The translations under genes were made by a program, and so were the position numbers. 64,000 bases of DNA from a virus, in the IMG/VR virus record IMGVR_UViG_3300049005_000030, positions 37,154 through 101,153 of that record. One strand, 5' to 3'. Within the stretch, counting starts at the first letter, position 1. The number at the start of each line of letters is the position of its first letter. The notes under the pieces were generated by a model. That model did not search any database. It saw only the letters and a program-made list of their open reading frames with translations, and had not been told where the DNA came from. Positions 20,544-61,595 of the stretch are shown piece by piece.

Positions 20544-20573
20544 AGCTTAGCCGGCAACAGGGCGGCTAGTCAA
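20544..20573 (-). promoter_or_regulatory. Dyad-type promoter
   Basis: On the minus strand TTGACT (20568-20573), 18 bp, TAAGCT (20544-20549); the spacer has the AGCCG...CCGGC inverted repeat. It overlaps the last codons and TAA of the gene at 20547 and serves the operon starting with the Cys-rich gene. Confidence 0.75.
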
Positions 20574-20843
20574 CTCCCCGTTTCTGGCCAGCCTCGCCAG
20601 CACCGGCCACCGTCCCGCCAGCCGCGCATCCCGGTACCGGGCCAGAAACAACGCCGTGGCCGGATCCGCTTCCTGCTCCGCGCGCGCCCGCTCCATCAGC
20701 TCCCGGAACGAGACCACCTCGCGATACGCCACCACGGCCGCCGCCTGGTCGAGCCCCTCACGGCGTCGGCGCACAGCGCCAACGGTCACCGCGCCACCCG
20801 TCAGCAGCCAGCCGAGAACGGCCGTGGTCAACTCGGCGCTCAC
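20547..20843 (-). CDS. Membrane-anchored small protein
   Basis: A 98-residue protein starting at GTG 20843 and overlapping the exonuclease stop. One hydrophobic N-terminal segment (TTAVLGWLLTGGAVTVGAV) is followed by a basic, helical cytoplasmic part (FRELMERARAEQEADPATAL). Its TAA stop lies in the -10 of the next promoter. Function unknown. Confidence 0.65.
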   Translation of the reverse strand: MSAELTTAVLGWLLTGGAVTVGAVRRRREGLDQAAAVVAYREVVSFRELMERARAEQEADPATALFLARYRDARLAGRWPVLARLARNGELTSRPVAG

Positions 20844-21595
20844 GCGTGCGGCCATGGCGTGTGCTCGGCCCGCAACAGCCGCGCCGTCACCAGGGCCTCC
20901 ACCACATCGTCGGCGGCGCGGTGTGCGACCAGGGTTGCCAGGTTGAACTCGCCGGGGCCGAGCGCGTCCTTGAGCAGGTGCGTGCACACGTCGTCGATCA
21001 CACCGGCCTGGCAGGCCACCACCTCGAACGGCTGGCCGTTAAGGCCGTACTGCAACACCGGCGTCTGGATGCCCAGCACACGGGCGGCCACCGAGACGTC
21101 GTGCTGAAAGTAGGCCACCTTAAACATCGGGTTCGGATCGTCGACCATGTCAAAACCCATCACACGGTGAGCCGCCAGCACACGGTTGTCGAAGTGGCTC
21201 ACGCCCCGGCCGCACAGCACGATGCGGCACTTGTCGGTGGTGCTAGAGATCTGGTCGGCCGCCTCTTCGAAATCGTCGGCGATCAGCCGGTGCAGTTCGG
21301 CGGCGTGCCCCAGGCGACTGGTGTGGGGAGCACTCAGCCACTGATCCCGGAGTCCGGACGCGTGATGCATGTCGCGGACGACGGGCTTCAGATTGATCCA
21401 GTCCACGAGCCTGCCCTGAAAAGCGGGCAGCGCCTCGGCGCCGCGCCTGGGCAGCAGATTGGTGTAGCGGCTGCGCAGCGGCGTCACCATGGACAGCTCG
21501 CTGGTGGTGAAACACCAGGCGCATTCCAGCACGGTGTCCGCGTCGGGGTCCAGGCCGGTCGTCTCGAAGTCGAGCCACAGGAAAAGGTCAGGCAC
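20840..21595 (-). CDS. DEDDh 3'-5' exonuclease (DnaQ-like)
   Basis: A 251-residue protein with the three exonuclease motifs: LDFETTGLD (9-17), the central GRGVSHFDNRVL with its Asp, and HRAADDVVEALVTARLL at the C-terminus. These place it in the DEDDh superfamily near oligoribonuclease and DNA polymerase III epsilon. It could trim DNA or short RNAs. A second enzyme of this superfamily is at 29556-30299. It is co-transcribed with two small membrane proteins. Confidence 0.87.
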   Translation of the reverse strand: MPDLFLWLDFETTGLDPDADTVLECAWCFTTSELSMVTPLRSRYTNLLPRRGAEALPAFQGRLVDWINLKPVVRDMHHASGLRDQWLSAPHTSRLGHAAELHRLIADDFEEAADQISSTTDKCRIVLCGRGVSHFDNRVLAAHRVMGFDMVDDPNPMFKVAYFQHDVSVAARVLGIQTPVLQYGLNGQPFEVVACQAGVIDDVCTHLLKDALGPGEFNLATLVAHRAADDVVEALVTARLLRAEHTPWPHA

Positions 21596-21902
21596 GCGAT
21601 CGGGTCCTTTCGGGGTCGGACGGCACGATCTCGTGGTGGCGCTGTTCGATGTCGAACAGCCACGGCCGCACCATCGTGGTCAGGCGGACCACACCCCTTG
21701 TGGCGATCATGAAGGCCGACCACAGCGACAGCACGATGGTGCCCAGCATCATCAGCGGGTTGACGCCGGTGATCGGCGCGACCAGCGCGTAGATGGCAAG
21801 GCCCAGGCCGACGGCCAGAGCGGAGGCCAGGACTCCGGCGACGATGTCCAGTCGGTCGTTGCCGGGGTGGCGGCCGCCGCGTGAAGCGGTCATGCGCGTC
21901 AT
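21588..21902 (-). CDS. Two-span membrane protein
   Basis: A 104-residue protein starting at ATG 21902. Two hydrophobic segments are visible (VAGVLASALAVGLGLAIYALV and PLMMLGTIVLSLWSAFMIA), followed by a cytoplasmic tail with HHEIVPSDPERTR. It is the first gene downstream of the promoter at 21937. Function unknown. Confidence 0.65.
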   Translation of the reverse strand: MTRMTASRGGRHPGNDRLDIVAGVLASALAVGLGLAIYALVAPITGVNPLMMLGTIVLSLWSAFMIATRGVVRLTTMVRPWLFDIEQRHHEIVPSDPERTRSRA

Positions 21903-21936
21903 GGAGTTGTCTCCCTCGGGTTGCGGAACCAGGGGT

Positions 21937-21966
21937 AAATTAGCCGACTCCACGGCGGCTTGTCAA
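21937..21966 (-). promoter_or_regulatory. Dyad-type promoter
   Basis: Minus strand TTGACA (21961-21966), 18 bp, TAATTT (21937-21942), a strong match at both boxes. The TGA stop of the gene at 21963 lies inside the -35 hexamer. It drives the membrane protein and exonuclease operon. Confidence 0.8.
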
Positions 21967-22802
21967 CGTCGACGCATCCCCTTGGGGAGTGAACGGCGGC
22001 GCGGAGTCTTGGTGAAATGCTCCGGTACCGCCAGGTCGCCCGGGTAGGGCGGATCGTCCGGCCACCGGCGCGGATCCGCCGTCTCGCCCGCCTTCACGCA
22101 CTCCTGGCACCGACCGGCCACCGTCACGCACCCCGGCCAGGACAGCCGGTCGCAGCCGGCGCACTTCCCCCACTCCGACCGCCGCGACGACCATGCCCAG
22201 CGCGGGCTGCCCGGCGTCGGCGCGTCGCCCCAGGCGTCGCTGCACGCGCCGTCCGGGCCGACCACCACCGCGCCGACCGCGAACGTGCCGCCGATGGCCA
22301 CCGGGTAGCCGCGCCCGGCGATCAGCTCCCACGAGCGGCACACCTTCCGGGCGTGCGCCTCGTTCGTTCCCGCCGGCACCGCGAGATGCCCCAGGTTCGT
22401 CTCGGCCAGCGCCACCCACGGCGCGCCCTCCGGCATCCCGGCAACGAAGTACGGCGACCCCGCGCCGGCCGGATACCGCGCGTCCGGGGACAGCGGGGCG
22501 ACCTGGGTGGCCTCCACCGCCGCGCGGCGGCGGCCGTAGGCGCCTCGGCCGGCCGCCTTCAGCGTCACCGGCTCGTGCTCGGGTTCCTCCCCCGCCAGCA
22601 CCGCGCGCCAGTGATCGAACAGCCGGCCCACGCACGCCTCGTGCAGCGGGTACAGCTGGCCGTCGGCGGCGTGCCAGTGCCATGCGGTGCGGTGGCAGGC
22701 GCAGCACGGTGCGGCCAGCCCGTGCCGCAGTCCCTTCACCACGTCCAGCGCCAGCACCGCCAGCGTGCCGGCATCGTCTTGGGGGACAGTCGGCCACGCC
22801 AT
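21963..22802 (-). CDS. Zinc-binding protein of unknown function
   Basis: A 279-residue protein whose ATG overlaps the primase stop. Two Cys/His groups are visible: CCACHRTAWHWH near residue 33 and CAGCDRLSWPGC followed by CQEC near residue 240, likely zinc sites. The C-terminus is basic (RRRSLPKGMRRR). Coupling to the primase-polymerase suggests a replication accessory role, but no family was recognised. Confidence 0.65.
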   Translation of the reverse strand: MAWPTVPQDDAGTLAVLALDVVKGLRHGLAAPCCACHRTAWHWHAADGQLYPLHEACVGRLFDHWRAVLAGEEPEHEPVTLKAAGRGAYGRRRAAVEATQVAPLSPDARYPAGAGSPYFVAGMPEGAPWVALAETNLGHLAVPAGTNEAHARKVCRSWELIAGRGYPVAIGGTFAVGAVVVGPDGACSDAWGDAPTPGSPRWAWSSRRSEWGKCAGCDRLSWPGCVTVAGRCQECVKAGETADPRRWPDDPPYPGDLAVPEHFTKTPRRRSLPKGMRRR

Positions 22803-25087
22803 CAGCCCACCGTCCGATCCGCGCCCAGCGACACGCCACCCTTGGCCGGGTCGTCGACCGCGTGCAGGCCGCGCTTCCCTATCGTGCGCTCGTAGGACGG
22901 GCGTATCATCTCGATAATCGCAGCCCATTCGGCTTTTGAGAACTGCCCAGCATCCACCTTGTACCAGGTACGTCGGCTGGACATTCCGGGCGTAGAGATA
23001 CGTATGCGCTCCGGATTCAGCCGCAAAAGGTCGATAATGTCCACACTGTTACGTCCGATTACGGCACCGGCCTGCGATCTACAATAGGCGAGAAACACCT
23101 TTTTGTTGATATAGATATCCGGCGGCGTAGCGGGAAGCCAGTTGTTGGTCTCGCGGATCCACGGCTTGCCGAGCGAGCCGACCTCGTTGGGCTCACCGGT
23201 GCCGTGGATGTCCATCAGGTAGCTGAACAGCCACTCATGCGCGAAGTGGGCCAGGTCGCCCTCGGAGGAGTCGCGACGGATGACGGTCCCCAGGGTGCGA
23301 ATGCACTGCTTCCAGTCCTCTTTGGGCCCATCCTCGCGAGCGATGATCATAATGTCGCGCTGGATGGCCTTGATAAACCCCCCAGGGCTGTCGAACATGT
23401 CACGACGCCACCACTCGGTCGGCAACAACCGACCGGGCCGGTAACGGCTGGGCCGGTCAGTCGGCCACTCCATGTCTATCGGCATCCGCAGCAGCAATCG
23501 AACAAGCTGGTTCGAACCGTAGTCCCGTCCTTCGAAGCGCCAGACTCGCACACCGCGCTGAATATATGCCTTGTCGATCAGAAGGTCAGTCAAAATGTCG
23601 AGGTTCGCGGCTTCCAGGCTGGTGCGCTCCGGGAACGCCTCGAACGGATTGCCGGGATCGGCGTCCGGGGCGACCGGGGTGGGCGGCGGCGCCACTCCGA
23701 TCGCGTCGGCGACCACGACCTGTTCGGCGGCGATCGCGGCCTTGACCTCGGCGGGCTGGACGTCCTCGATCAGCTCGGCGGTGAACGCGGCGAACACGGC
23801 CTCAGCCTCGGCCGGGTCGCCGTGTCCGTTGGCGATCGCCATCACCGGCTCCGGCCGCACCTGCGCCGGCACCGCCAAGGTCAGCCCGGCCGCCCCGGTG
23901 ATGCGCTGGTCAGCCTGGTCTCGGACGGCGGCCGCGTGCGCGGCGGTGGCCTGAAACTTGGCCACCGTCCGCGTGATGTAGTCCAGCCGTCGGCGCGGGT
24001 CCACCTTGTCGGTGTTGGCCCCGGCGGTGCGCAGCCGGCGGCACATGACGGCCTCGATCAGGGCTTCGGTGTCCACCCCGTCGAACTCGCCCAGCAGCCT
24101 GGTCAGCGCCGCGTCGTAGCGGTTCTGGTCGTCCTTGAGGTCGGGGCGCTGCCCCTGCCAGGTGGCGATCAGCTTCTTGCCGACGTCATCGGCCTCGGCG
24201 GCCAACGCCAGGATCTCGGCCAGCCACGGCGGCGTGTAGTCGGCCGCCTTGTAGGTGGGTGAGGTGACCCGCGCCCACACGGCCGCGAAGTTGACGGCCT
24301 TGACCATCTCGCGCTCAACCTCGGACAGCGTCGCCGAGGTCTGGCCGAGCACGGGCGTGGAGTAGGCGGCCAGCACCGAGGCGTCGGGCAGGTACTCGTC
24401 GAAGTCGTCCGGGTCGTAGCGGGCATCCTCGTCCAGCCGCAGGATCTCCACCCGGCGCGGGTTGTCGGAGATCTTGCGGTTGGTGGTGCCGGCCGGGCGC
24501 ATCAGCCGCGCCAGGTCGAACACCGAGTCGACTTTCCAGCGGCCCAAGGTCTCGGCGTGGAACCTCGCGGTCGCGTTCCACTCGGCCACCAGGGCGGCCA
24601 TGCGCGCGCGCTCGGCGTCCGGGTCGGCGGCGTCGCGGGTCAGCCACGGCTCCCGCAGCAGCCACCACACCTGCAACCCGCCACCGGAGTGCACCACCAT
24701 CGTCGGCGGCAACCGCATCGCGTCCACGATGCGCAGCGCCGACTCGACCGTGGCCGGATAGTGCTCACCCGCGTGGCCGGGCCCCAGGATGTCGATGTCC
24801 AGCCACAGGCCGGTAATGCCGGCGATCTCGTCGGCACGCGGCCTGGTCTTGTCCTCGCCCACGCGGTCGGACAGTCCCGTTCCCACGTAGACGGCGGTGG
24901 TTCCCTCGCGCTCGTCCAGTTCGGCGATGAGAGACGCAACGGCGCCGGGCTGATCCGCCCGGCGCCACTGCGTCCGCTTGCTCGATAGTTCCCAAACCGT
25001 CGCATACAGACCCGACAGCCGGTCATCGCCATCGTGCCCGCCGAACAGTGCCGAGCAGAACCGGGTGGCCTGCTCGGCGCGGCTCAT
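22802..25087 (-). CDS. Archaeo-eukaryotic-type primase-polymerase
   Basis: A 761-residue protein. Residues 85-240 carry the AEP signatures: LWLDIDIL with the metal-binding DxD (97-99), VVHSGGGLQVWW with the conserved His (133), and FDLARLMRPAGTTNRK. The C-terminal half looks like a DNA-binding or winged-helix extension; no P-loop was found, so it is not a primase-helicase fusion. Prim-pols start and extend DNA chains. No separate DNA polymerase is in the window, so this may prime for a host polymerase. Bases at about 22900-23150 are less GC-rich than the rest. Confidence 0.85.
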   Translation of the reverse strand: MSRAEQATRFCSALFGGHDGDDRLSGLYATVWELSSKRTQWRRADQPGAVASLIAELDEREGTTAVYVGTGLSDRVGEDKTRPRADEIAGITGLWLDIDILGPGHAGEHYPATVESALRIVDAMRLPPTMVVHSGGGLQVWWLLREPWLTRDAADPDAERARMAALVAEWNATARFHAETLGRWKVDSVFDLARLMRPAGTTNRKISDNPRRVEILRLDEDARYDPDDFDEYLPDASVLAAYSTPVLGQTSATLSEVEREMVKAVNFAAVWARVTSPTYKAADYTPPWLAEILALAAEADDVGKKLIATWQGQRPDLKDDQNRYDAALTRLLGEFDGVDTEALIEAVMCRRLRTAGANTDKVDPRRRLDYITRTVAKFQATAAHAAAVRDQADQRITGAAGLTLAVPAQVRPEPVMAIANGHGDPAEAEAVFAAFTAELIEDVQPAEVKAAIAAEQVVVADAIGVAPPPTPVAPDADPGNPFEAFPERTSLEAANLDILTDLLIDKAYIQRGVRVWRFEGRDYGSNQLVRLLLRMPIDMEWPTDRPSRYRPGRLLPTEWWRRDMFDSPGGFIKAIQRDIMIIAREDGPKEDWKQCIRTLGTVIRRDSSEGDLAHFAHEWLFSYLMDIHGTGEPNEVGSLGKPWIRETNNWLPATPPDIYINKKVFLAYCRSQAGAVIGRNSVDIIDLLRLNPERIRISTPGMSSRRTWYKVDAGQFSKAEWAAIIEMIRPSYERTIGKRGLHAVDDPAKGGVSLGADRTVG

Positions 25088-26928: not shown

Positions 26929-26958
26929 ACCTTAGCCGGTCTATCATCGGCTAGTCAA
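26929..26958 (-). promoter_or_regulatory. Dyad-type promoter
   Basis: Minus strand TTGACT (26953-26958), 18 bp, TAAGGT (26929-26934); spacer AGCCG...CCGGC. The TAG of the gene at 26951 is inside the element. It drives the replication operon (26895 down to 21963). Confidence 0.8.
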
Positions 26959-27253
26959 CCCGAGTTGTCCCCTCCCACTCGGCCAATGTGGACAGTCCCA
27001 GCGGCGTCAGGTCGACCGGCCCCGGACGCTCCTCGACCTGCCGGGGCGCGATCAACTTCGCCGAGCGCAGCTCGGCCATCGTGCGCCGCGCGGGCCCCGT
27101 CAGCTGCACAACGCCCTGTTCCAGGTCGTTCAGGTGGTAGGCGCCCGCCAGGTCGTCATAGGTCACGCGAGCGTCCCGCACCTGGTGCAGGGCCTGCACA
27201 CGGGCCAGCGTCTTGACGGGAACCTCCGGTGCGTCCTGGTCGGTGTCTGCCAC
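26951..27253 (-). CDS. Winged-helix-like small protein
   Basis: A 100-residue protein read from GTG 27253 after GAGGAG. The order LARVQALHQVRDARVTYDDL, a loop, then GPARRTMAELRSAKLIAP and LTPLGLSTLAEWE suggests a winged helix of the kind seen in small DNA-binding regulators. It is a one-gene operon under the promoter at 27290. A regulatory role is inferred, not shown. Confidence 0.6.
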   Translation of the reverse strand: MADTDQDAPEVPVKTLARVQALHQVRDARVTYDDLAGAYHLNDLEQGVVQLTGPARRTMAELRSAKLIAPRQVEERPGPVDLTPLGLSTLAEWEGTTRVD

Positions 27254-27289: not shown

Positions 27290-27319
27290 ATCTTAACCGG
27301 CAACATGGCGGCTACGAAA
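27290..27319 (-). promoter_or_regulatory. Dyad-type promoter with weak -35
   Basis: Minus strand TTTCGT (27314-27319), 18 bp, TAAGAT (27290-27295); the spacer keeps AGCCGCC...GCCGG. The dyad is preserved although the -35 has drifted. Confidence 0.65.
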
Positions 27320-28342: not shown

Positions 28343-28372
28343 AAGCTAGCCGCCGCTACACCGGCTTGTCAA
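28343..28372 (-). promoter_or_regulatory. Dyad-type promoter
   Basis: Minus strand TTGACA (28367-28372), 18 bp, TAGCTT (28343-28348); spacer AGCCGGTG...GGCGGC. It starts immediately after the terminator at 28374. Confidence 0.8.
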
Positions 28373-29079: not shown

Positions 29080-29348
29080 CGGCTCGAACCTCCATTGACG
29101 GTGGTGACCATGAGCACGGCGCCGCCATCGAAGGCGGGCTGGTCGGCCTCGGTGTCGGTGACGATCAGGTGGCCCCGGTTCACCTCGCGGGTGAACAGGC
29201 GGGCGGTGCGTGAGGGAAGCGGGACGGCGCGGCGACCGGCCAGCAGGTAGGGCTGACGGTGGGTCGCGACGTCGGCGGCCAGCTGGCCGCAGGCGGCGGA
29301 TTCGAGCAGCGCCGAGGTGACCAGGCGCCGCAACTCGGGAAGCCTCAT
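29076..29348 (-). CDS. Small protein from a leaderless mRNA
   Basis: A 90-residue protein. Its ATG starts exactly 7 bases after the -10 of the promoter at 29355, with no ribosome site, so translation should be leaderless. The N-terminal helix (LPELRRLVTSALLESAACG) is followed by a basic middle and a beta C-terminus. Function unknown. Confidence 0.65.
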   Translation of the reverse strand: MRLPELRRLVTSALLESAACGQLAADVATHRQPYLLAGRRAVPLPSRTARLFTREVNRGHLIVTDTEADQPAFDGGAVLMVTTVNGGSSR

Positions 29349-29354
29349 ACGTCA

Positions 29355-29384
29355 ACCATAGCCGGTCAAACACCGGCTAGTCAA
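29355..29384 (-). promoter_or_regulatory. Dyad-type promoter, leaderless
   Basis: Minus strand TTGACT (29379-29384), 18 bp, TATGGT (29355-29360). The spacer dyad AGCCGGTG...ACCGGC is nearly complete. The gene at 29348 begins at the expected transcription start. Confidence 0.82.
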
Positions 29385-34207: not shown

Positions 34208-34237
34208 AGCCTAGCCGGTGATCTACCGGCTATATGT
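34208..34237 (-). promoter_or_regulatory. Dyad-type promoter with weak -35
   Basis: Minus strand ACATAT (34232-34237), 18 bp, TAGGCT (34208-34213); the spacer AGCCGGTAGATCACCGGC keeps the dyad. The TAG-type stop of the gene at 34230 lies at the -35 edge. It drives the SNF2 operon. Confidence 0.65.
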
Positions 34238-35114: not shown

Positions 35115-35144
35115 ACCGTAGCCGACTACCGGGCGGCTAGTCAA
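35115..35144 (-). promoter_or_regulatory. Dyad-type promoter
   Basis: Minus strand TTGACT (35139-35144), 18 bp, TACGGT (35115-35120). The last codons of the 49-residue gene at 35137 read ATT GAC TAG, so the -35 and the stop overlap. Confidence 0.78.
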
Positions 35145-39595: not shown

Positions 39596-39625
39596 AGGCT
39601 AGCCGATGAATCACCGGCTAGTCAA
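39596..39625 (-). promoter_or_regulatory. Dyad-type promoter
   Basis: Minus strand TTGACT (39620-39625), 18 bp, TAGCCT (39596-39601); spacer AGCCGGTG...TCGGC. The TAG of the gene at 39618 follows the -35. It leads an operon of about 4.4 kb ending at 35137. Confidence 0.8.
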
Positions 39626-39842: not shown

Positions 39843-39872
39843 AGAGTAGCCGGCATCACATCGGCTACATAG
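39843..39872 (-). promoter_or_regulatory. Dyad-type promoter with weak -35, leaderless
   Basis: Minus strand CTATGT (39867-39872), 18 bp, TACTCT (39843-39848). The spacer dyad AGCCGATG...GCCGGC is kept while the -35 has drifted. Confidence 0.68.
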
Positions 39873-50281: not shown

Positions 50282-50311
50282 TTGCGTAGCCGTCGTGACA
50301 CCGGCTATGAT
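50282..50311 (+). promoter_or_regulatory. Dyad-type promoter, leaderless
   Basis: TTGCGT (50282-50287), 18 bp spacer AGCCGTCGTGACACCGGC, TATGAT (50306-50311); the ATG at 50318 is exactly 7 bases on. It begins immediately after the stop of the gene at 50087. Confidence 0.82.
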
Positions 50312-51003: not shown

Positions 51004-51255
51004 ATGACCTGGAATCCCGGCACCTGCTCGAACTGCCGCCGACTTGGGCGCGCCTGCGCCGCACACGCCAGCGTCTCCGAACGCGCCACCAACACCACGT
51101 ACGACGCCGACGGCTCGGACATCGGGCTGTTCATCGACTCGTCCGGCAACCCCGCCGTGGGCAGCTCGACCGGCATCGGCGTCGACGTCGTCAACGGTGC
51201 ACCGGGTGCGGGGTGCACGGACTACGTGGAAGCTATTGACGCGCCGGTGATTTGA
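51004..51255 (+). CDS. Small Cys-containing protein
   Basis: An 83-residue protein from ATG 51004 after AAAGGA. TCSNCRRLGRACAAH near the N-terminus suggests a zinc site; the rest is Gly/Asp-rich with a last Cys. Its 3' end contains the next promoter. Function unknown. Confidence 0.58.
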   Translation: MTWNPGTCSNCRRLGRACAAHASVSERATNTTYDADGSDIGLFIDSSGNPAVGSSTGIGVDVVNGAPGAGCTDYVEAIDAPVI

Positions 51256-51265
51256 CGGCTAGTCT
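51236..51265 (+). promoter_or_regulatory. Dyad-type promoter, leaderless
   Basis: TTGACG (51236-51241), 18 bp, TAGTCT (51260-51265); ATG at 51272, exactly 7 bases on. The stop of the preceding gene lies within the spacer. Confidence 0.82.
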
Positions 51266-51535: not shown

Positions 51536-51565
51536 TTGACTAGCCGGTGAGACTCCGGCTAGTCT
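51536..51565 (+). promoter_or_regulatory. Dyad-type promoter, leaderless
   Basis: TTGACT (51536-51541), 18 bp spacer AGCCGGTGAGACTCCGGC, TAGTCT (51560-51565); ATG at 51572 is 7 bases on. One of the best copies of the element. Confidence 0.87.
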
Positions 51566-52118: not shown

Positions 52119-52778
52119 ATGGCGGACCGGGAGGAGTTCGATGCGTGGCCGCGAGGGCTCGGCGAGGTCGCCGGCCACGCGGACCCCGCAGACCCGATGC
52201 TGCCCATGGCGCCGCCGCGCGACGACACCGAAGCGCGCATCGCTTCCACGCTGGCGCGCCAGCTGCCCTACTACGGCAGTCCCGACCTCAAGCCCATCCA
52301 ATTCGCCGAGGCGTACGCCCGGCTGTGCGCCGTGGCCGTGGCCCGCGCCGAGTTCTACGGCCAGCTGCTCGCGCGCCACTATGAGGACAGCGACCTGCGG
52401 GACTTCCACGGTGAACCGACGGCCGACACCGGCGCCACCGGCCTGATCGGCTTCAAGTACGACCTGGCCAAGGACGGCACCCCCGTCCCGATCGGCGAGG
52501 AGATCCGCGCCCTGGTCAGGCTGGAAGCCGAGGAACGCGACCGCGCCGCCAAGCTGATCCGCGACGGTGTGCGGCTCGGGATCGAGGCCAAGCAGGTCGA
52601 CGTGATGCGCTCCTACGGCCACACCGTCGTCGCCGCGCTGAAGGCCCTGTGCGTGCAGCTGGGCATCCCGTGGGAGGACGAGGCGCGGCTGGCCGCGCAG
52701 CGCGCCATCCTCGCCGCCCGCACCGGCCTGGGCTACGCCATCACCGCGCCACGGACTGATGATGCCGGCGCCGTCTGA
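52119..52778 (+). CDS. Terminase small subunit (probable)
   Basis: A 219-residue protein from ATG 52119, which lies 7 bases after TACCCT and so may also be leaderless. It is mostly helical and charged (LKPIQFAEAYARLCAVAVAR; IRALVRLEAEERDRAAKLIR) with a possible DNA-binding helix pair. It overlaps the large terminase start, the classic small-large arrangement. The small subunit recognises the packaging site and recruits the motor. Confidence 0.72.
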   Translation: MADREEFDAWPRGLGEVAGHADPADPMLPMAPPRDDTEARIASTLARQLPYYGSPDLKPIQFAEAYARLCAVAVARAEFYGQLLARHYEDSDLRDFHGEPTADTGATGLIGFKYDLAKDGTPVPIGEEIRALVRLEAEERDRAAKLIRDGVRLGIEAKQVDVMRSYGHTVVAALKALCVQLGIPWEDEARLAAQRAILAARTGLGYAITAPRTDDAGAV

Positions 52779-54258
52779 CGACGACCTGGCCGAGCTGTGG
52801 GCCAGCGCCACAATGCTCGCCGAGCAGCGGGTGGCCGAGCTGCCCGACTGGGCCGACCTGTCGCAACTGGACAGCGATGACGAGATCTGGGCTGGTATCC
52901 AGCGCACCGCGATCCGCGAGCTGGAACCGCCGCTGCCGCGCCCGTGGCGGGCCACCGCCCGCGCCAAGCAGCTGCCGCCGGCCGGCCGCTGGCGGCACTG
53001 GATCCTGAGCTGCGGCCGAGGGTTCGGCAAGACGCACGTGGGCTCGAACGTGCTGGCCGAGCTGGCCGTGTCCGAGCCGGGCGACTACGCGGTGGTGGCG
53101 CCGACACTGGGCGACGCCAAGAAGATCTGCGTGGAAGGCCCGTCCGGCCTGCTCAAGGCCCTGGGCGACGATCTGAAGGATTACAACAAGTCCGACTACA
53201 TCCTGTACCTGCACAACGGCAGCCGGATCGTACTGGGCTCGGCCGACGCGCCCGACCGGATCCGTGGCTGGAACCTGCGGGCGGTGTGGTGCGACGAAGT
53301 GGGTTCGTGGCGGGACCCGAAGGTGTGGAACGAGGGCATCAAGTTCGCCACCCGTATCGGCGACCCGCGCATCATCATCACCACCACCCCGACCCGGGGC
53401 AACAAGATCCTGGTCAAGCTGTTCGACGACTACCTGGGCAAGGGCGGCGACATCCTCGGCGGGTTCGCCGGCAACACCGTGCTCACCCGGGGCGGCACCT
53501 ACGAGAACCGCGCCAACCTGTCCGAGGACTGGCTGCGCGAGATCGAAGAGGAATTCGCCGGCACCGCGCTGGGCCGCCAGGAGTTGGAGGGCGAACTGCT
53601 GCGCATCGTGCCCGGCGCCCTGGTGTCGATGGACACGATCAGCCTGACCCGCGTCACGGTCGAGCAGTGCCCCGACTTCTGGAACGTCGTCACCGCCCTG
53701 GACCCGTCGGTCACCAACACCGAGGACTCCGACGAGTGCGGCATCATCTCCGCCGGGGTCGGGCCGGCGCCGCTGGACTGGATACCCCCGAAGGGTGTTC
53801 CGCCGTCGCTGGCCAGCGCGCCGCACATCTACATCGTGGAGGACTCTTCGCTGCGCGCCGGGCCGGAGTCGTGGGCGCGGCAGGGCCTCAACACGGCGGC
53901 CGAGTGGATGGCCGACTGCATGGTGGCCGAGGTCAACAACGGCGGCGACCTGGTGTTCACCAACGTGTTGCAGGTCGCCCGCAGCGAAGGCCACACGGTG
54001 CCGAACCTGCGCCCGGTGCACGCCTCGGTCGGCAAGCGCACCCGGGCCCAGCCGATGGGCGGCATGTGGAACCAGCACCGCGTGCACCTGGTCGGGGCCG
54101 GATTCAAGACCCTGGCGGACCAGTGGTGCACGTTCGTCGACGGCACCGGGCAGAAGTCGCCCGACCGCTTCGACGCCTCGGTGTGGGCCGGCACCGGCCT
54201 GGTGCCCAGCTTGGGCGTCAAGTCCGGCACCGAGGTCCGGGTGCTCGGCGCGGCCTAG
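52759..54258 (+). CDS. Terminase large subunit
   Basis: A 499-residue protein with the packaging ATPase motifs: Walker A-like SCGRGFGKTH, DYAVVAPTLGDAK, AVWCDEVGSW (Walker B with catalytic Glu) and IITTTPTRG (coupling motif). The C-terminal nuclease domain shows VTALDPSV with the first Asp and VAEVNNGGD further on. It is the motor that cuts and packages phage DNA. Downstream genes are convergent, so the capsid genes are not in this transcription unit within the window. Confidence 0.93.
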   Translation: MMPAPSDDDLAELWASATMLAEQRVAELPDWADLSQLDSDDEIWAGIQRTAIRELEPPLPRPWRATARAKQLPPAGRWRHWILSCGRGFGKTHVGSNVLAELAVSEPGDYAVVAPTLGDAKKICVEGPSGLLKALGDDLKDYNKSDYILYLHNGSRIVLGSADAPDRIRGWNLRAVWCDEVGSWRDPKVWNEGIKFATRIGDPRIIITTTPTRGNKILVKLFDDYLGKGGDILGGFAGNTVLTRGGTYENRANLSEDWLREIEEEFAGTALGRQELEGELLRIVPGALVSMDTISLTRVTVEQCPDFWNVVTALDPSVTNTEDSDECGIISAGVGPAPLDWIPPKGVPPSLASAPHIYIVEDSSLRAGPESWARQGLNTAAEWMADCMVAEVNNGGDLVFTNVLQVARSEGHTVPNLRPVHASVGKRTRAQPMGGMWNQHRVHLVGAGFKTLADQWCTFVDGTGQKSPDRFDASVWAGTGLVPSLGVKSGTEVRVLGAA

Positions 54259-55319: not shown

Positions 55320-55349
55320 AGTGTAGCCGCTGCAACGCCGGTTGCACAA
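55320..55349 (-). promoter_or_regulatory. Dyad-type promoter, leaderless
   Basis: Minus strand TTGTGC (55344-55349), 18 bp spacer AACCGGCGTTGCAGCGGC, TACACT (55320-55325), start codon 7 bases on. It lies just past the WhiB gene stop. Confidence 0.75.
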
Positions 55350-55355: not shown

Positions 55356-55766
55356 TCACGCGGCGACCCGCCCGGCCGTCCGCTCACGATCGCGGTACAG
55401 CTTCTGTCGCTCCCGACTGCACACCCGGCAGTCCAGCCGGCCACGCCCGTCGATCCGCGTGTTCTCCGCGCTGATCTCGTGACCGGCGCCGCAGGTCCGC
55501 ACCTGCGGCGCCGGCTCCGCCACCAGCTCGGCCGACGCGCGACCGGCCACGCGTACGGCGCGCCGGTCCTGCTCGGACAGGCCACCCCACACGCCGGACG
55601 GCTCCCCCCGCTCGACCGCCCACGCCTGGCACTGGACGATCACCGGGCAGCCGGCGCACACCAGCTTCGCGCGCACCGCCTGCACGAGCGCGGGGCCCAT
55701 GATGCCGACCGGCTGGAACAGCTCCGGATCCACGTCCCGGCACGCGCTCCTATGACGCCAGTCCAT
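55356..55766 (-). CDS. WhiB-family transcription regulator with C-terminal zinc-like extension
   Basis: A 136-residue protein read from ATG 55766 (AGGAG upstream). DWRHRSACRDVDPELFQP, then CAGCPVIVQC, give the four Cys (9, 37, 40, 46) that hold the 4Fe-4S cluster of WhiB proteins, and GVWGGLSE is the family turn. After residue 85 an extra segment with CGAGHE and LDCRVCSRER looks like a zinc finger of HNH-like type and is not part of the usual WhiB core. WhiB proteins act with the housekeeping sigma factor; phage versions can alter host promoter use. Confidence 0.88.
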   Translation of the reverse strand: MDWRHRSACRDVDPELFQPVGIMGPALVQAVRAKLVCAGCPVIVQCQAWAVERGEPSGVWGGLSEQDRRAVRVAGRASAELVAEPAPQVRTCGAGHEISAENTRIDGRGRLDCRVCSRERQKLYRDRERTAGRVAA

Positions 55767-56045: not shown

Positions 56046-56075
56046 AGCATAGCCGGTCACTCGCCGGTTAGTCAA
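56046..56075 (-). promoter_or_regulatory. Dyad-type promoter
   Basis: Minus strand TTGACT (56070-56075), 18 bp spacer AACCGGCGAGTGACCGGC, TATGCT (56046-56051). It drives the 57-residue gene. Confidence 0.8.
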
Positions 56076-56108
56076 TGGGTTTGGTATGCTGATCCGGCAT
56101 CGTGGGCC

Positions 56109-56159
56109 CGAACACGACAAAGCCCCCCGAGCGGCGGCCGGGGGGCTTTGTCGTGTTCG
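56109..56159. terminator. Perfect 21-bp hairpin terminator
   Basis: Bases 56109-56129 and 56139-56159 are perfect inverse complements (core AAAGCCCCCCG/CGGGGGGCTTT) around a 9-nt loop. It closes the gene at 56163 on the minus strand; the A/T ends flank a GC core, so it may work in both directions. Confidence 0.85.
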
Positions 56160-56162
56160 TGA

Positions 56163-56408: not shown

Positions 56409-56447
56409 CGGGTCTCTCCTCTATGGACTTGTCGAGCAACTGAGGAA

Positions 56448-56477
56448 AGAATAGCCGGTCACTCGACGGTTCGTCAA
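56448..56477 (-). promoter_or_regulatory. Dyad-type promoter
   Basis: Minus strand TTGACG (56472-56477), 18 bp spacer AACCGTCGAGTGACCGGC, TATTCT (56448-56453). The TGA stop of the gene at 56474 is part of the -35. Confidence 0.8.
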
Positions 56478-56833
56478 CCCTCTTGTTGGCTGGTCGAGCA
56501 ACGCGGATCCACCACCCGATCATGGAACGGCTCGCCCTCGGACGGCAGCATGAAGTTCAGCGTGAGCCCCGCCGACTTGCCGGCTGGACACAGGAACACC
56601 GCGCTACGCCACAGCAGCGTCCCGCCGTGCCACAACGCGATGAACCGCAGTCCATCCGCTTCAGCCACCGGGAACGACACCGACGCGCCCGCCCGCGTCG
56701 CCAGCTGGTCGCCCACCTGGTTCTGTTCGGTGGGGAACGGGTCCGGCACGCCGTGCTCCCAGGAATGCAGCGTGGCCCACAGCTTCCGCTCGGCGGCCGG
56801 CGGCTGTTCGATGTCGTGCACGTTCTCGCCCAT
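56474..56833 (-). CDS. Hypothetical protein from a leaderless mRNA
   Basis: A 119-residue protein from ATG 56833, 7 bases after TACAGT. Mixed fold with a beta core (FIALWHGGTLLWRSAVFLC; SAGLTLNFMLPSEG). Function unknown. Confidence 0.62.
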   Translation of the reverse strand: MGENVHDIEQPPAAERKLWATLHSWEHGVPDPFPTEQNQVGDQLATRAGASVSFPVAEADGLRFIALWHGGTLLWRSAVFLCPAGKSAGLTLNFMLPSEGEPFHDRVVDPRCSTSQQEG

Positions 56834-56839
56834 GTCGCC

Positions 56840-56869
56840 ACTGTAGCCGCCGCCCGACCGGCTCACCAT
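56840..56869 (-). promoter_or_regulatory. Dyad-type promoter with weak -35, leaderless
   Basis: Minus strand ATGGTG (56864-56869), 18 bp spacer AGCCGGTCGGGCGGCGGC, TACAGT (56840-56845). The dyad is partial; the start codon distance is the usual 7. Confidence 0.6.
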
Positions 56870-56951
56870 CACGTCTCGGCGCGTTGACCTCCCTCGACCA
56901 GGCCGAGCCTGGATACTGGCCGCGACCCACCAGCCCAGCGGAGGACCACCC

Positions 56952-57413
56952 ATGTCGTACTACGACGCCAGCGGCAACCTGCTGAACAAGACGCAGATGC
57001 TCGCGCTGGCCACCACCCAGTCGGCCGAGACCGTCTACCTGTTCAACAGCGACGTCCACCAGAAGTTCACCCCGGACGGCGCGCCGTTCGAGTCCGGCAG
57101 CAAGCTGCTGTTCCACGCGGGCCAGACCGTGAAGCAGAGCGACATCGACGCCCTGTTCCTCACGGCCACCGTGACCACCATCGCGCCCGCCAGTGGCGTG
57201 GCGGCCGGCGGCACCGCCGTGGTCATCACCGGCACCAACCTGGCCGGCGTCGCCGGAGTCACCTTCGGCGGTGTCGCGGCCACCAACGTCAAGGTGGTCA
57301 GCAGCACCCGCGTCACCTGCACCACCCCGGCGCACGCCACCGGCGCTGTCGCCGTCGTCACCAAGGACGACAGCGGCGATGTCACCACCGCTGGTGGCTT
57401 CACCTACGTGTAG
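56952..57413 (+). CDS. IPT/TIG (Ig-like) domain protein, possible capsid decoration
   Basis: A 153-residue protein from ATG 56952 after GGAGGA. The first 70 residues are mixed, and residues 75-153 form an IPT/TIG Ig-like domain (TIAPASGVAAGGTAVVITGT, VTFGGVAATNVKVVSSTRVT). Such domains on short phage proteins are often exposed on capsids or tails and help cell-surface binding. It stands on the plus strand among minus-strand genes, perhaps a late gene. Confidence 0.72.
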   Translation: MSYYDASGNLLNKTQMLALATTQSAETVYLFNSDVHQKFTPDGAPFESGSKLLFHAGQTVKQSDIDALFLTATVTTIAPASGVAAGGTAVVITGTNLAGVAGVTFGGVAATNVKVVSSTRVTCTTPAHATGAVAVVTKDDSGDVTTAGGFTYV

Positions 57414-57435
57414 TCGACAGAGGTAGCCTGCGCCC

Positions 57436-57981
57436 ATGTCCAGCGACACGAGCAGGGAACGGGAGCTGGCGCTGTCCTCCGCGCTGGAATTCGCCCGCGA
57501 CCGGGCCGACATCGGGTACGCCGACCTGGTCGCGGGCGCGGACAAGATTTATCGCTGGCTGATCGGGCCAGTGTTCATTCGATCCAGGTTCAGCGTGGTT
57601 CGGGCGCAAGGCTCTGAACCCACCGGTCAGGAAGGTCCCGAAGTGCCCCAGATCAAGGACGACCAGGAATTCGACTGGATCATCGACGAGTTCGACACCA
57701 AGGGTGTCGAGGTCGGCGACCGTCCCGATGACACGACCGACGACCCCACGTTCACCGTGGATGTCGAGGGCGCGCTGCTGCTCACGGTCGACCCCGAGAA
57801 CCCGCGCAAGGTCACCATCGGCGGCGCCAATCAGACCGGCTCGTTCGTGGTCACCTGCGACCCGCACATCTTCGGGTTCGCGCCGCTGACGAAGGCCGTC
57901 GACGTGGTCGCTGGCGACGCGGCCACCGCGACCTCCACGGAGAGCGAAGTCCGCCCGCAGACCCCGGCCAGCCAGGGCTGA
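57436..57981 (+). CDS. Beta-rich protein of unknown function
   Basis: A 181-residue protein from ATG 57436, 7 bases after TAGCCT, suggesting a leaderless mRNA although no dyad is present. A helical start (LALSSALEFARDRADIGYAD) leads to a beta domain (PTFTVDVEGALLLTVDPENP; GSFVVTCDPHIFGF). It follows the Ig-like gene and could also be structural. Confidence 0.62.
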   Translation: MSSDTSRERELALSSALEFARDRADIGYADLVAGADKIYRWLIGPVFIRSRFSVVRAQGSEPTGQEGPEVPQIKDDQEFDWIIDEFDTKGVEVGDRPDDTTDDPTFTVDVEGALLLTVDPENPRKVTIGGANQTGSFVVTCDPHIFGFAPLTKAVDVVAGDAATATSTESEVRPQTPASQG

Positions 57982-57993
57982 GCACGACACACG

Positions 57994-58032
57994 ACGGCCC
58001 CCGATCCGCAGGCGCGCGGGATCGGGGGCCGT
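57994..58032. terminator. Bidirectional hairpin terminator
   Basis: ACGGCCCCCGATCC (57994-58007) pairs with GGATCGGGGGCCGT (58019-58032), 14 bp, between convergent genes. Confidence 0.8.
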
Positions 58033-58040
58033 TGGCGATC

Positions 58041-58781
58041 CTAGGCCCGGTGCGGCACCGGCGCGACCACGTCGCCCTGCTGGCCGAGCAGGTAGGCCAT
58101 GTCGCGCACGTGCATCCGGAACCGGCCCCGGTCGCCCCACCCCTTCCCCCACGAGTTGTCCAGGGTGATGACACCGTTGTCCAAAGTCGAGCCGGGCTCG
58201 AATTCGCGGCACAGGTACTCGTGGCCGCCCTGCACGCTGCCGGCGACGGGGACGAAACCACGCGAGTCAGGCTGGTCCATACCGGACAGCCACACCGTGC
58301 CGATGATCACCGGCGCGGTCTGCAACGCGGTCAACAGCCCGGTCACGCTGAACGCGTGCTGGTAGCCGTCGATCAGGCCGCGCGCCCGCAGCACCTTGGC
58401 GATAGCCAGGCCGGACGACCCGGTGTCCATGGGCGGGTAGCTGCCGGGCACGTCGTCGCGGTGGGTCGCGTCGCTGTACAGCTTGACCGCGTACGCCTCG
58501 TCCAGGCCAAGCCCGCGCACCGGCCGGGACAGCGCGAACGGCTCGCAGGCCAGCATCCCGGTACCCGCGTTGCCGGTGCAGCTGCCGAGCTGGCCCTGGT
58601 CCAAGATGTTGCTGTGACGCCGGTGGAACACGCCTTCGTAGGCGTGTTCGGGACCCCGGTCGGCGGTGGCATAGGCCCGCGAGCGCGGGTCGTGCTCGAT
58701 GAACCGGCCCAGCAGCCGCTCGGCGCGCGGCTGACCGTGGATGAACGCGATCAGCGGGGCGTGATCGTAGACAGTCGTCAT
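58041..58781 (-). CDS. Papain-like cysteine protease (C1-like)
   Basis: A 246-residue protein with the C1 catalytic set in order: the oxyanion Gln and Cys68 in DQGQLGSCTGNAG, His187 in QGGHEYLC, and Asn209 in TLDNSWGKGWGDRGRFRM, which also has the WG..WG..G signature after the Asn. No signal peptide is seen, so it would act in the cell or in the virion, for example on a structural protein or a host target. It stands alone between terminators. Confidence 0.85.
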   Translation of the reverse strand: MTTVYDHAPLIAFIHGQPRAERLLGRFIEHDPRSRAYATADRGPEHAYEGVFHRRHSNILDQGQLGSCTGNAGTGMLACEPFALSRPVRGLGLDEAYAVKLYSDATHRDDVPGSYPPMDTGSSGLAIAKVLRARGLIDGYQHAFSVTGLLTALQTAPVIIGTVWLSGMDQPDSRGFVPVAGSVQGGHEYLCREFEPGSTLDNGVITLDNSWGKGWGDRGRFRMHVRDMAYLLGQQGDVVAPVPHRA

Positions 58782-58828
58782 GCGGGGTAGCCTGCGGGGC
58801 ACGTGGCCGCATGGGGATGCCGACACGC

Positions 58829-58860
58829 CGATGCCCCGCCTGTGGCCTGGCGGGGCATCG
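58829..58860 (-). terminator. Hairpin terminator
   Basis: CGATGCCCCGCC (58829-58840) pairs with GGCGGGGCATCG (58849-58860) just after the stop at 58881 on the minus strand. Confidence 0.75.
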
Positions 58861-58880
58861 GGCATTTCGGGACCAGTCGG

Positions 58881-59315
58881 TCAGACGATCTTGACCCGCT
58901 GGACTGGGTAGTTCAGGCCGAACACGCCGGGGGCAGTCCTGAAGCCCCGGCCGGCGATCCGGAAGGCGTCGCCGCCGACGTTGATGCGGGCCAGCGCGTG
59001 CGAGATATGCACGGTGTAGTTGATCGGGGCGCTGGTGGCCACGGTCTCCCGGGTGCCCAGGTCGTAGACCTCGACCGCATAGCGGTCGCCGTCGGGGTTC
59101 TCGGGTGCGTCGACCAGGCGGGCGCCGTACAGCGTCGGCAGGGCGCGCGAGTCCTCGTCCAGCTCGGCCAGCAGCCCGACCACCACGTGCAGGTCACGGT
59201 AAACCTTGTTCAGGGTGACGCCGGGGCTGACGTCGGCCTGCTTGCTGCGCTGGTCCATGTAGTCCGCGATCGTGCGCACGGCCTCGGTGATGCTGCTGGC
59301 GGTCGGGGTGGCCAT
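58881..59315 (-). CDS. Hypothetical protein
   Basis: A 144-residue protein from ATG 59315 after GAGGAG. A helical N-terminus (ITEAVRTIADYMDQRSKQAD; VVVGLLAELDEDSRALPTLY) is followed by strands (YAVEVYDLGTRETVATSAPI). It is a single-gene operon. No family recognised. Confidence 0.63.
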   Translation of the reverse strand: MATPTASSITEAVRTIADYMDQRSKQADVSPGVTLNKVYRDLHVVVGLLAELDEDSRALPTLYGARLVDAPENPDGDRYAVEVYDLGTRETVATSAPINYTVHISHALARINVGGDAFRIAGRGFRTAPGVFGLNYPVQRVKIV

Positions 59316-59351
59316 GGTCTTCTCCTCAGGGCGCGTGAGCGGAACAGGGAT

Positions 59352-59381
59352 AGACTAGCCGCTCACGCGTCGACTCGTCAA
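59352..59381 (-). promoter_or_regulatory. Dyad-type promoter
   Basis: Minus strand TTGACG (59376-59381), 18 bp spacer AGTCGACGCGTGAGCGGC, TAGTCT (59352-59357). The TGA stop of the mannanase gene lies in the -35. Confidence 0.78.
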
Positions 59382-60514
59382 CCCCCGCAGCCTGGCGTGG
59401 CCACCGGCGGGATATCGGCCAGCTGCACCGACCACGGGTCCGCGAACAGCTGGGCCGAGTTCTGGTTCTCCACCGGGCTCAGCATCGCGCCGTTCGTCTC
59501 GTGCCAGCCCTGCCACCCCACCACCTTCGGGAAGGCCGAGCGGATCCGATTGATGATCGTCGTGGAGTCCCAGGTGCCGCCGTTGGGCGTGGTGTCGTCC
59601 GGCCCGACCTCGCCGAACAGGATGGGCTTGCCCGTGGCCACCAGGTCCGCATAGGTGTTGGAGTACTTGTTGGGCATCGTCAGCGTGTTCGAGTACAGGT
59701 CCGCGCCCACCAGGTCCACCCAGGACGGCCGGCCGAACGAGCACGCCGAGTCCCAGTCCAGCGCGTTGCAGCTGTGCATCCACAGGATCTTCACGGTGCT
59801 CACCTGCGCGGTCACGTAGTCGCGCAAGTCCGTGGTCAGCTGCACCAGCTGGGCGGACCGGGTGGCGTTCGACACGGTCCGGTCCATACCCCACCAGAAG
59901 TAGCTGCCGTTGCTCTCGTGGAACGGCCGGAACGCGATCGTGGCCCCAACCGGCAGCCTGTTCAGGAACGCCACCAGCCTGTCCACCTCCGCCCACCAGG
60001 CGGTGCGCGCCGAGCTGGCCGGGGCCGAGGCGTACAGCGCGGGCAGGCTCGGCTTGGCCGCGTCCGCGTTGGACACCCAGGCCGAGGAGATGGTGCGCGA
60101 GCCGGCGCGCGCCGTCGGGTTCGCCGGGTGGATGTCCATCAGCACCAGGCCGCCCGCGTTGAGCTGCTGCGCCATGCGGTCGGCGAGACCGGCCTGGAAC
60201 GCGTAGCTGTCGTCCGCGCCGGTCAGCGCGACGGTGCCGAGGATGGCCTGGCCGCGCGCATAGTCGGTGGTGCCGTCGGCGGCCGACTCCCACTCGGGGA
60301 GATGCTGACCGGTCAGCACGCGCTTGTCGGACCGGGAGGTCAGGCTGTTCAGGTAGGCCAGCCACTGCGCCGGGGAGCGGTAGGCGGCCGTGGCCGCCGT
60401 GGCGGCCGGCGCGGTGGAGCGCGGCACTGCCGCCAACACCGCCGGAGACAGCGCGAGCAGGGTGGCCAGGGCGGCCACCACACTGCGAGTGCGAAGAATT
60501 CTCATACCGTCCAT
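59378..60514 (-). CDS. Secreted GH26 beta-mannanase-like glycoside hydrolase
   Basis: A 378-residue protein from ATG 60514 (or 60505). A clear signal peptide comes first (MRILRTRSVVAALATLLALSP ... AAVPRS). The barrel shows GH26 features: QWLAYLNSLTSRSDKRVLTG and Q, FRPFHESNGSYFWWG with the acid/base Glu, and KPILFGEVGPDD with the nucleophile Glu. GH26 enzymes mainly hydrolyse beta-1,4-mannan. There is no phage-like attachment domain. A terminator directly upstream and a promoter at the stop isolate it, the layout of a moron gene. Confidence 0.88.
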   Translation of the reverse strand: MDGMRILRTRSVVAALATLLALSPAVLAAVPRSTAPAATAATAAYRSPAQWLAYLNSLTSRSDKRVLTGQHLPEWESAADGTTDYARGQAILGTVALTGADDSYAFQAGLADRMAQQLNAGGLVLMDIHPANPTARAGSRTISSAWVSNADAAKPSLPALYASAPASSARTAWWAEVDRLVAFLNRLPVGATIAFRPFHESNGSYFWWGMDRTVSNATRSAQLVQLTTDLRDYVTAQVSTVKILWMHSCNALDWDSACSFGRPSWVDLVGADLYSNTLTMPNKYSNTYADLVATGKPILFGEVGPDDTTPNGGTWDSTTIINRIRSAFPKVVGWQGWHETNGAMLSPVENQNSAQLFADPWSVQLADIPPVATPGCGG

Positions 60515-60526
60515 GGTGGACAGCGC

Positions 60527-60556
60527 ACGGCCCCCGGCTCGGGAACCGGGGGCCGT
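60527..60556 (-). terminator. Hairpin terminator upstream of the mannanase gene
   Basis: ACGGCCCCCGG (60527-60537) pairs with CCGGGGGCCGT (60546-60556), after the stop at 60571 on the minus strand and only 12 bp before the mannanase start. Confidence 0.75.
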
Positions 60557-60570
60557 GTCGCGGACGAGAA

Positions 60571-60867
60571 CTACTCCTCGTCGGGCTCGAACTGGCCGAA
60601 CAACTCGTCGGCCTGCGCGCTGTCCAGCTCGATCTCGTGTCGCGTGCCATCGGCCACCAGGTTGACGGTCCACCCGTCGTGGTGGCTGCCGTCGGGCCGG
60701 GTGCGACCCAGGCTGATGCCGTCGACGACGCCGGTGTGCTCCGCGCCGTCGCGGCCGGTGATGGTCACCTCGTGGCCCAGCATCGGCGCGCCCATGCGGC
60801 CGAGGCCGGCGGCCAGCGACTGCACGGCCTGGCTGATCACGTCATCCATCTCCGGGTTGGCGTTCAC
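60571..60867 (-). CDS. Hypothetical protein
   Basis: A 98-residue protein from GTG 60867 overlapping the previous stop. After a short helix (MDDVISQAVQSLAAGLGRMG) comes a small beta domain (EVTITGRDGAEHTGVVDGIS) and an acidic tail (FEPDEE). Function unknown. Confidence 0.6.
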   Translation of the reverse strand: MNANPEMDDVISQAVQSLAAGLGRMGAPMLGHEVTITGRDGAEHTGVVDGISLGRTRPDGSHHDGWTVNLVADGTRHEIELDSAQADELFGQFEPDEE

Positions 60868-61205
60868 GCCATCCCCCGCGACAGCTCGTAGAGGACTTCC
60901 CAGTCGATGTCACAGGTGCAGCCCACGGTGTAGCCGGTGCACCCGTACTGGCCGCCGTGGCAGCCGGGGCAGGTGCACGGCTCATCCGGGCCGTGTGGGC
61001 AGGCGTCGGTCATTCTTCGGTGGTGCTCGACCACCTCGTCCGACATCGGCGGGAAGCAGGTGCATCCGGCGTGTTCGGCGCTGAACGCGACCGCGCCGGT
61101 CTGGTCGGTCAGCTTGTGCGCGCCGCAATTGCACACCACGAACCGGTCGGTGAAGCCGTGGCCGGGCTGGAAGATCACCCGGTAGGGCCGGGTGGGCGCG
61201 GTCAC
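60864..61205 (-). CDS. Cys/His-rich protein, likely multi-zinc
   Basis: A 113-residue protein with eleven Cys in groups: CNCGAH, GCTCFPP, ACPHG, PCTCPGCHGG, YGCTGY and GCTCDID. It probably folds around two or more zinc ions. It overlaps both neighbours. Function unknown; the density of ligands is striking for its size. Confidence 0.62.
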   Translation of the reverse strand: MTAPTRPYRVIFQPGHGFTDRFVVCNCGAHKLTDQTGAVAFSAEHAGCTCFPPMSDEVVEHHRRMTDACPHGPDEPCTCPGCHGGQYGCTGYTVGCTCDIDWEVLYELSRGMA

Positions 61206-61528
61206 TCGCGGCCGCCGAACAAGATGGAGATGCCGCCCTTGTAGAGGTCGTCGACGGTGAAGCCGTCGGGGAACCGGATCTCGCCGGTGTACTTGGTGTG
61301 CTGGCTCAGGTAGCGGTCTTCGTCGTCGTTGCCGAACTCGACCAGCACGTCCACCTGGTCTTCGGTCAGCTCGCGGTCGGTGTCGAGGGTGTACTGATCG
61401 TCGGTGTCTTCGATGTACGCGGCGAGGTCGTCCAGGGCGGCCCCGTTGCCGTTGAGCAGGATCCAGGAGTGGGCGGTCTCGCCCTCGTTCTCGTTGACCT
61501 CGGTGAAGCGGACGAACTTCCTGGTCAT
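61202..61528 (-). CDS. Small acidic protein
   Basis: A 108-residue acidic protein from ATG 61528 after AAAGG. Beta-alpha pattern (KFVRFTEVNENEGETAHSWI; DDLAAYIEDTDDQYTLDTDR). It is the first gene after the promoter at 61566. Function unknown. Confidence 0.62.
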   Translation of the reverse strand: MTRKFVRFTEVNENEGETAHSWILLNGNGAALDDLAAYIEDTDDQYTLDTDRELTEDQVDVLVEFGNDDEDRYLSQHTKYTGEIRFPDGFTVDDLYKGGISILFGGRE

Positions 61529-61565
61529 GGGGATGCCTTTCGCTGGTCGGTCACCGGACCACTCC

Positions 61566-61595
61566 AGTATAGCCGGTGACAGGGCGGCTAGTCTA
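61566..61595 (-). promoter_or_regulatory. Dyad-type promoter
   Basis: Minus strand TAGACT (61590-61595), 18 bp spacer AGCCGCCCTGTCACCGGC, TATACT (61566-61571), a strong -10. Confidence 0.78.

Follow-up and report, generated by a model that had tools for sequence, protein, structure and literature searches.

A conserved dyad in the spacer of host-type promoters suggests a genome-wide promoter-operator family in an uncultured actinobacteria-type phage

In the 64,000-nt stretch of DNA analysed here (the window, bases 37154-101153 of the 101,153-bp IMG/VR virus record IMGVR_UViG_3300049005_000030), 22 sites carry one and the same inverted repeat, TAGCCG-N9-CGGCTA, lodged between a -35 hexamer and a TAnnnT -10 hexamer. 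These 22 are the window count only, the whole 101-kb record holding about 36 such sites, and the reading somewhat favoured here is that each is a composite promoter-operator on which a dimeric protein encoded by the phage acts as a master repressor. Coordinates preceded by g refer to the whole record (window position = g minus 37153) and minus-strand sites are named, as in the sequence-only reading that had first listed them, by the lowest coordinate of the 30-bp element. The record exhibits a direct terminal repeat of 127 bp and a G+C content of 69%; no close cultured relative was found by DNA, cultured phages gave distant protein matches only, and the phage is considered as an uncultured one of the actinobacteria type.

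All 22 listed sites are present and their coordinates are right. The arms are always separated by N9, at least 10 of the 12 arm bases are kept at every site, and the dyad, 21 bp long, extends over the last base of the -35 as well as the first two bases of the -10. With up to two mismatches allowed, AGCCG-N9-CGGCTA was matched 90 times versus 31.7 times in shuffles, a count reached by none of 100 shuffles, and a matrix scan of the whole record gave the ~36 places where 0.5 were expected above threshold, each of them seen on both strands since the site is symmetric. Because this first matrix had been trained on what it then finds, the scan was repeated with a matrix built from related phages only: 26 window matches scored above 14, all at listed sites, no unlisted window site was above 9.8, and the maximum in 20 shuffles was 11.1, with none above 14. 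The spacer had been given as 18 bp, with 17 bp at one site; the 17-bp reading suits 47988 and probably also 47101. Where the -35 had been described as drifted (27290, 34208, 39843 and 56840), both arms and TAnnnT are indeed retained. A coding-region match at window 22915 (g60068) was taken as chance, and 56840 was rejected as a coding site, the gene caller having set the start too far upstream; with the leaderless start at 56833, it is intergenic. In number, intergenic location, frequency above chance and restriction to phage, the sites have the features of a dispersed phage operator family.

Regarding promoter function, proposed for all listed sites, support comes from a search blind to the dyad, from the spacing of the hexamers and from start-codon distances. 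The pattern TTGACn-16..19-TAnnnT was matched 24 times in the whole record against 0.4 expected by chance; 22 of these matches have the arms at 7/8 or better, one more is degenerate (6/8, g1709-1738) and the last one lies in a CTAG-rich gap at window 46.6 kb. In the relatives, the dyad-bearing share of such matches is 16/20, 12/13, 4/4, 4/5, 1/1 and 1/1. Distances from -10 to start form two groups, one at about 21-48 nt, where a ribosome-binding site is mostly present, and one at exactly 6 nt: of 78 dyads with TAnnnT, 12 have an ATG precisely 6 nt downstream of the -10 and 3 have it at 7 nt, other offsets never occurring more than three times. This fixed distance lends independent support to the promoter reading and the 6-nt class predicts leaderless mRNAs, which are common in actinobacteria; in the window, such genes would start at 29348, 47137, 50318, 51272, 51572, 55313 and 56833. 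TTGAC, a spacer of 17-18 bp, TAnnnT and a fixed distance from starts, all found here, are together the marks of a SigA-type promoter.

At leadered promoters, a second element was observed, namely GTTCCGC (or GTACCGC), which lies some 7-12 nt downstream of the -10, where the mRNA 5' end is predicted (e.g. window 20544, 21937, 35115, 56046 and 59352, as well as g1771, g5834 and g7468). Of the leadered sites, 9 of 21 in this phage and 6 of 8 in the related contig G002 have GT[TA]CCG, against 0.4% of background windows.

Seven related contigs (G001-G007) were found by the motif pattern, with 2 to 25 matches each when both strands are counted; they share gene order with the phage and their proteins are mostly 30-69% identical. 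When a phage gene has the dyad, so does the upstream region of its orthologue in 19 of 26 pairs, versus 2 of 103 when it has not (Fisher p 5e-15), keeping in mind that the pairs are not fully independent, several phages being compared per gene. Many sites in G005 and G006 combine TTGACA with a 17-bp spacer rather than TTGACT with 18 bp, the register of the dyad to the -10 remaining fixed as the -35 shifts by 1 bp. A shifted pattern (TTGACAGCCG) matched further contigs at a single site each, which was taken as chance. The earlier suggestion of selection on the dyad itself is supported: its left arm lies in spacer DNA, and the dyad is conserved in distant phages, is kept when the -35 slides or decays, and is kept at a non-promoter site in three phages; such conservation and register, together with promoter-less and antisense sites, are hard to explain by promoter sequence alone.

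These atypical sites belong to the late region, where the late operon appears, from our own reading, to be of the contractile-tail type, with a putative sheath gene at g36347. No site lies within window 1-16 kb, as had been stated, but three conserved ones are found in the late region outside the window, at g19862 (head-protease gene), g27006 (ahead of the capsid gene) and g36302 (preceding the sheath gene in antisense orientation). The g27006 dyad (L010:8456-8476), which is devoid of promoter hexamers, directly follows the head-protease stop codon, with some 130 nt left to the capsid gene; this phage, G005 and G007 have all retained it, and it is a candidate roadblock or RNA element. The promoter-like g36302 site (g36298-36327; L010:17748-17777) opposes the late operon about 20 bp before the tail-sheath gene and is also present in G005. 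The head-protease gene itself (g19923-27005; L010:1373-8455) encodes a protein of 2360 amino acids with an N-terminal head-maturation protease domain (PHROG 80), the rest of the protein being very long; G003, G005 and G007 also have long versions. Upstream of the portal gene g15097 and its orthologues, TACCCTCAC is conserved in four phages without TTGAC or dyad and could be a late promoter.

In the mechanism proposed, the housekeeping RNA polymerase of the host would read TTGAC and TAnnnT, 17-18 bp apart, and a phage-encoded dimeric DNA-binding protein would read the TAGCCG-N9-CGGCTA that fills the spacer. Since the dyad overlaps the ends of both hexamers, the bound dimer should exclude RNA polymerase, the two being mutually exclusive. 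Nearly all phage operons with host-type promoters would be repressed, leadered and leaderless alike, with perhaps a roadblock at the promoter-less g27006, and the purpose of the shut-off could be either lysogeny, possibly in plasmid form, or the transition between early and late transcription. Near-consensus hexamers at a near-ideal distance should make these promoters strong alone and in need of turning off, which favours repression. We infer, then, that a protein binds, that it is a dimer, that it originates from the phage and that it represses rather than activates.

Besides the incomplete independence of the orthologue pairs, several points weigh against this proposal. No repressor-like protein stands out, and the motif is not enriched in five actinobacterial genomes with capsid relatives. 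Neither the phage nor its relatives gave a match to the integrase (Phage_integrase family), resolvase or ParA families, which leaves a lysogeny repressor without an obvious partner. The conserved antisense site is left unexplained by simple promoter repression. The switch of all early genes first envisaged is too simple a picture, the sites also preceding the head-protease gene and the lysis/terminase block.

The alternative that survives best, unlikely as it is, would be a phage activator or co-activator working from within the spacer in a MerR-like manner and defining a phage-specific promoter class. Lying at the centre of the spacer and in contact with both hexamers, the dyad has the geometry of MerR-family operators; sites with a poor -35 keep perfect arms, and some of the candidate regulators have MerR/Xis-type winged helices or excisionase-like matches. 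MerR-type activation, however, uses spacers of 19-20 bp; those found here are near optimal at 17-18 bp, so that the dyad is centred but the spacer is not of the MerR type, and most of the -35 and -10 hexamers match consensus, which is unusual for activator-dependent promoters.

It is quite improbable that the arms are read by RNA polymerase or a transcription factor of the host, with the phage copying a host promoter type, even if the hexamers are host-type. A search for the exact full motif covered 257 Gb of prokaryote sequence, with 84,980 species represented by one genome each, and gave three isolated single matches; no enrichment over the reversed pattern was found in those genomes, nor any in the five actinobacterial genomes just mentioned, although the true host may be missing from those scanned, and a host regulon seems unlikely. 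Those actinobacterial genomes with capsid-module relatives were also considered as lysogens and rejected, as they lack the motif and share little else. A stretch near one such relative (L075:9491-17409; G240:C14) contains eleven copies of GGTTTCGC-NN-GCGAAACC. Less probable still, dispersed sites for another function (centromere-like partition, packaging or DNA modification) could lie in promoters by coincidence, as one conserved dyad without promoter and one antisense copy might suggest, but the coupling to promoters is tight, the start-codon distances are fixed and no ParA was found. Finally, it is hardly credible that the dyad serves upstream transcription as an RNA hairpin, be it a terminator or a processing site: six-base arms could pair and the g27006 copy directly follows a stop codon, but no T-run comes after the dyad, the transcripts that follow the arms have their predicted starts downstream of them, and a hairpin would not need a fixed register with -35 and -10.

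Returning to repression by a phage protein, the regulator is probably phage-encoded and its candidates are listed with the sites in Table 1. The helix-turn-helix (HTH) protein at 45396 is one of several and nothing singles it out: its sequence HTH matches are weak, and its structure model shows a fair N-terminal winged helix, the domain matching BldC and the Xis of mycobacteriophage Pukovnik (prob 0.96-1.00, E above 0.2; Foldseek weak). The g4728-5288 protein has 45% identical relatives in G002 and G005, none in cultured phages, and a poor structure model (pLDDT 46.8). Among viral contigs, relatives of both proteins are confined to the same phage group and, most relatives being fragments, co-occurrence does not separate the candidates. 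The 26951-27253 protein has no match in Pfam, PHROG or NCBIfam. Window 46107-47100 is a gene-free gap of 1 kb with 20 of the window's 54 CTAG and many GCTAG/TAGCA repeats; it holds TACCCCCGGGGGGTA, also found upstream of the orthologous HTH gene in G002, and is a possible origin or control region.

Table 1. Putative promoter-operator sites and candidate regulators (window coordinates, unless preceded by g)
Feature	Position	Strand	Details
Composite promoter-operator, leadered	20544..20573	-	TTGAC TAGCCG N9 CGGCTA AGCT; 33 nt to ATG 20510; GTTCCGC leader element
Composite promoter-operator, leadered	21937..21966	-	Matrix; also upstream of G002 orthologue
Composite promoter-operator, leadered	26929..26958	-	Matrix; also upstream of G002 and G001 orthologues
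Dyad, weak -35 (TTTCGT)	27290..27319	-	Upstream of 100-amino-acid protein gene 26951-27253; also at G002 orthologue
Composite promoter-operator, leadered	28343..28372	-	Matrix
Composite promoter-operator, leaderless	29355..29384	-	ATG at 29348
Dyad without recognisable -35	34208..34237	-	Perfect arms, TAGGCT -10; dyad also at G002 orthologue
Composite promoter-operator, leadered	35115..35144	-	Matrix
Composite promoter-operator	39596..39625	-	Best match of the window, score 38.3
Dyad without recognisable -35	39843..39872	-	Perfect arms, TACTCT -10
Composite promoter-operator, leadered	45280..45309	-	Upstream of 732-amino-acid gene 43054-45252
Composite promoter-operator, leaderless	47101..47130	+	TTGCTA, 17-bp reading; ATG 47137
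Composite promoter-operator	47988..48016	+	TTGACA, 17-bp spacer; before ~1 kb non-coding; leaderless GTG without long open reading frame
Composite promoter-operator, leaderless	50282..50311	+	ATG 50318
Composite promoter-operator, leaderless	51236..51265	+	ATG 51272
Composite promoter-operator, leaderless	51536..51565	+	ATG 51572
Composite promoter-operator (TTGTG), leaderless	55320..55349	-	ATG 55313
Composite promoter-operator, leadered	56046..56075	-	Matrix
Composite promoter-operator, leadered	56448..56477	-	Matrix
Dyad, weak -35, leaderless	56840..56869	-	ATG 56833
Composite promoter-operator, leadered	59352..59381	-	Matrix
Composite promoter-operator (TAGAC), leadered	61566..61595	-	Matrix
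Candidate regulator, N-terminal MerR/Xis-type winged HTH	45396..46106	-	Relative in G002; weak
Candidate regulator, 100-amino-acid protein	26951..27253	-	Own conserved dyad upstream, also in G002; DNA binding from own reading only
Candidate regulator, WhiB family	55356..55733	-	Pfam PF02467, E 1.3e-16; PHROGs
Candidate regulator	g4728-5288		Two HTH-like segments (own reading); PHROG DNA-binding family match; dyad upstream
Candidate regulator, 100-amino-acid protein	g14627-14929		Adjoins TraB-like cassette

Beyond these features, the phage encodes helicases, a primase and, at window 52759-54258, the large terminase; a tRNA-like gene of unclear identity (window 48594-48665) lies in the non-coding stretch after the 47988 site. 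To the left of the window, on the minus strand, a TraB-like cassette (g10792-14929; L009:10792-14929) comprises a translocase, a zinc-finger-like protein, a DUF2637 protein and a small HTH-like protein; it resembles actinobacterial plasmid transfer genes and is kept in G002, G003, G005, G006 and G007. An element of its own, ATACC-N7-GGTAT and TAGGGTATG, is conserved upstream of it, and a weak dyad-like site at g14951 was dropped as belonging to that element. The TraB-like gene matches NF041214 over nearly its full length (E 1.7e-26), far below the family's own cut-off. TraB-like and DUF2637 genes are genes of actinobacterial plasmids; given both of them and no integrase found, plasmid-like persistence of the phage is possible. 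It may be suggested, as a tentative extension, that all host-type promoters of this lineage of integrase-less phages with a TraB-like, conjugation-type translocase cassette form one module under a single new phage regulator, i.e. a whole-genome switch of a possible phage-plasmid.

With such sites, one protein could switch most phage genes at once. They offer a clean case of a regulon readable from sequence alone, with a register kept across phages of about 30-65% protein identity. Transcription starts can be predicted from the element with nearly single-base precision, and at least seven of the window's genes should be leaderless. In addition, the element may provide promoter-operator parts for actinobacteria, and the dyad, used as bait, gives a direct route to the regulator.

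The likeness to phiC31 that had been pointed out holds for the general kind only. In both cases, the genome of an actinobacterial phage has many scattered copies of one perfect palindrome, for the most part in intergenic positions; the conserved inverted repeat of phiC31, as found in this analysis, is however a contiguous CCTACTCACGTGAGTAGG palindrome with 15 exact ACTCACGTGAGT cores, of which the structural region has five; it is not accompanied by TTGAC at a fixed spacing, does not lie in the spacer of TTGAC promoters, and thus differs from TAGCCG-N9-CGGCTA in sequence, gap and placement. Searching the phage and the seven related contigs by tblastn gave no relative of the phiC31 c repressor (best E 0.52), and phiC31 has an integrase, whereas none was found here. 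The C1 operators of P1 are likewise dispersed sites of one repressor in a non-integrated phage, the site being an asymmetric one of 17 bp. In SPbeta, one master repressor, MrpR, has about ten dispersed SPBRE sites in promoter regions (PMC10516654), an arrangement similar to the present one except that SPBRE is of 15 bp, that SPbeta is an integrating prophage and that MrpR has a tyrosine-recombinase fold, no Phage_integrase-family protein having been found here. Cluster A phages (L5, TipsytheTRex) harbour more than 20 dispersed stoperators, all serving a single repressor of the phage and located in promoters or in short gaps between genes (PMC9283540); these are 13-bp asymmetric sites, oriented with transcription and bound by a monomer, whereas the sites described here are symmetric and placed in the promoter spacer, with a single clear case of a promoter-less intergenic site, g27006, kept in G005 and G007. 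The 17-bp palindromes TGTTCGG-N3-CCGAACA of cluster O (Corndog), of unknown function, exceed 30 copies in actinophages without integrase or parAB (PMC4351075), but about one third are intragenic and their link to starts is not a close one, unlike the dyads here, which are tied to promoters and starts. In cluster K (TM4 group), the SAS/ESAS repeats stand ahead of gene starts and are kept upstream of the same gene families across phages, SAS being thought to act in translation initiation and ESAS being 17-bp repeats with a variable spacer (PMC3203893). One phage regulator with many dispersed sites is thus already known; what differs here is the fixed placement of the dyad inside almost every recognisable host-type promoter.

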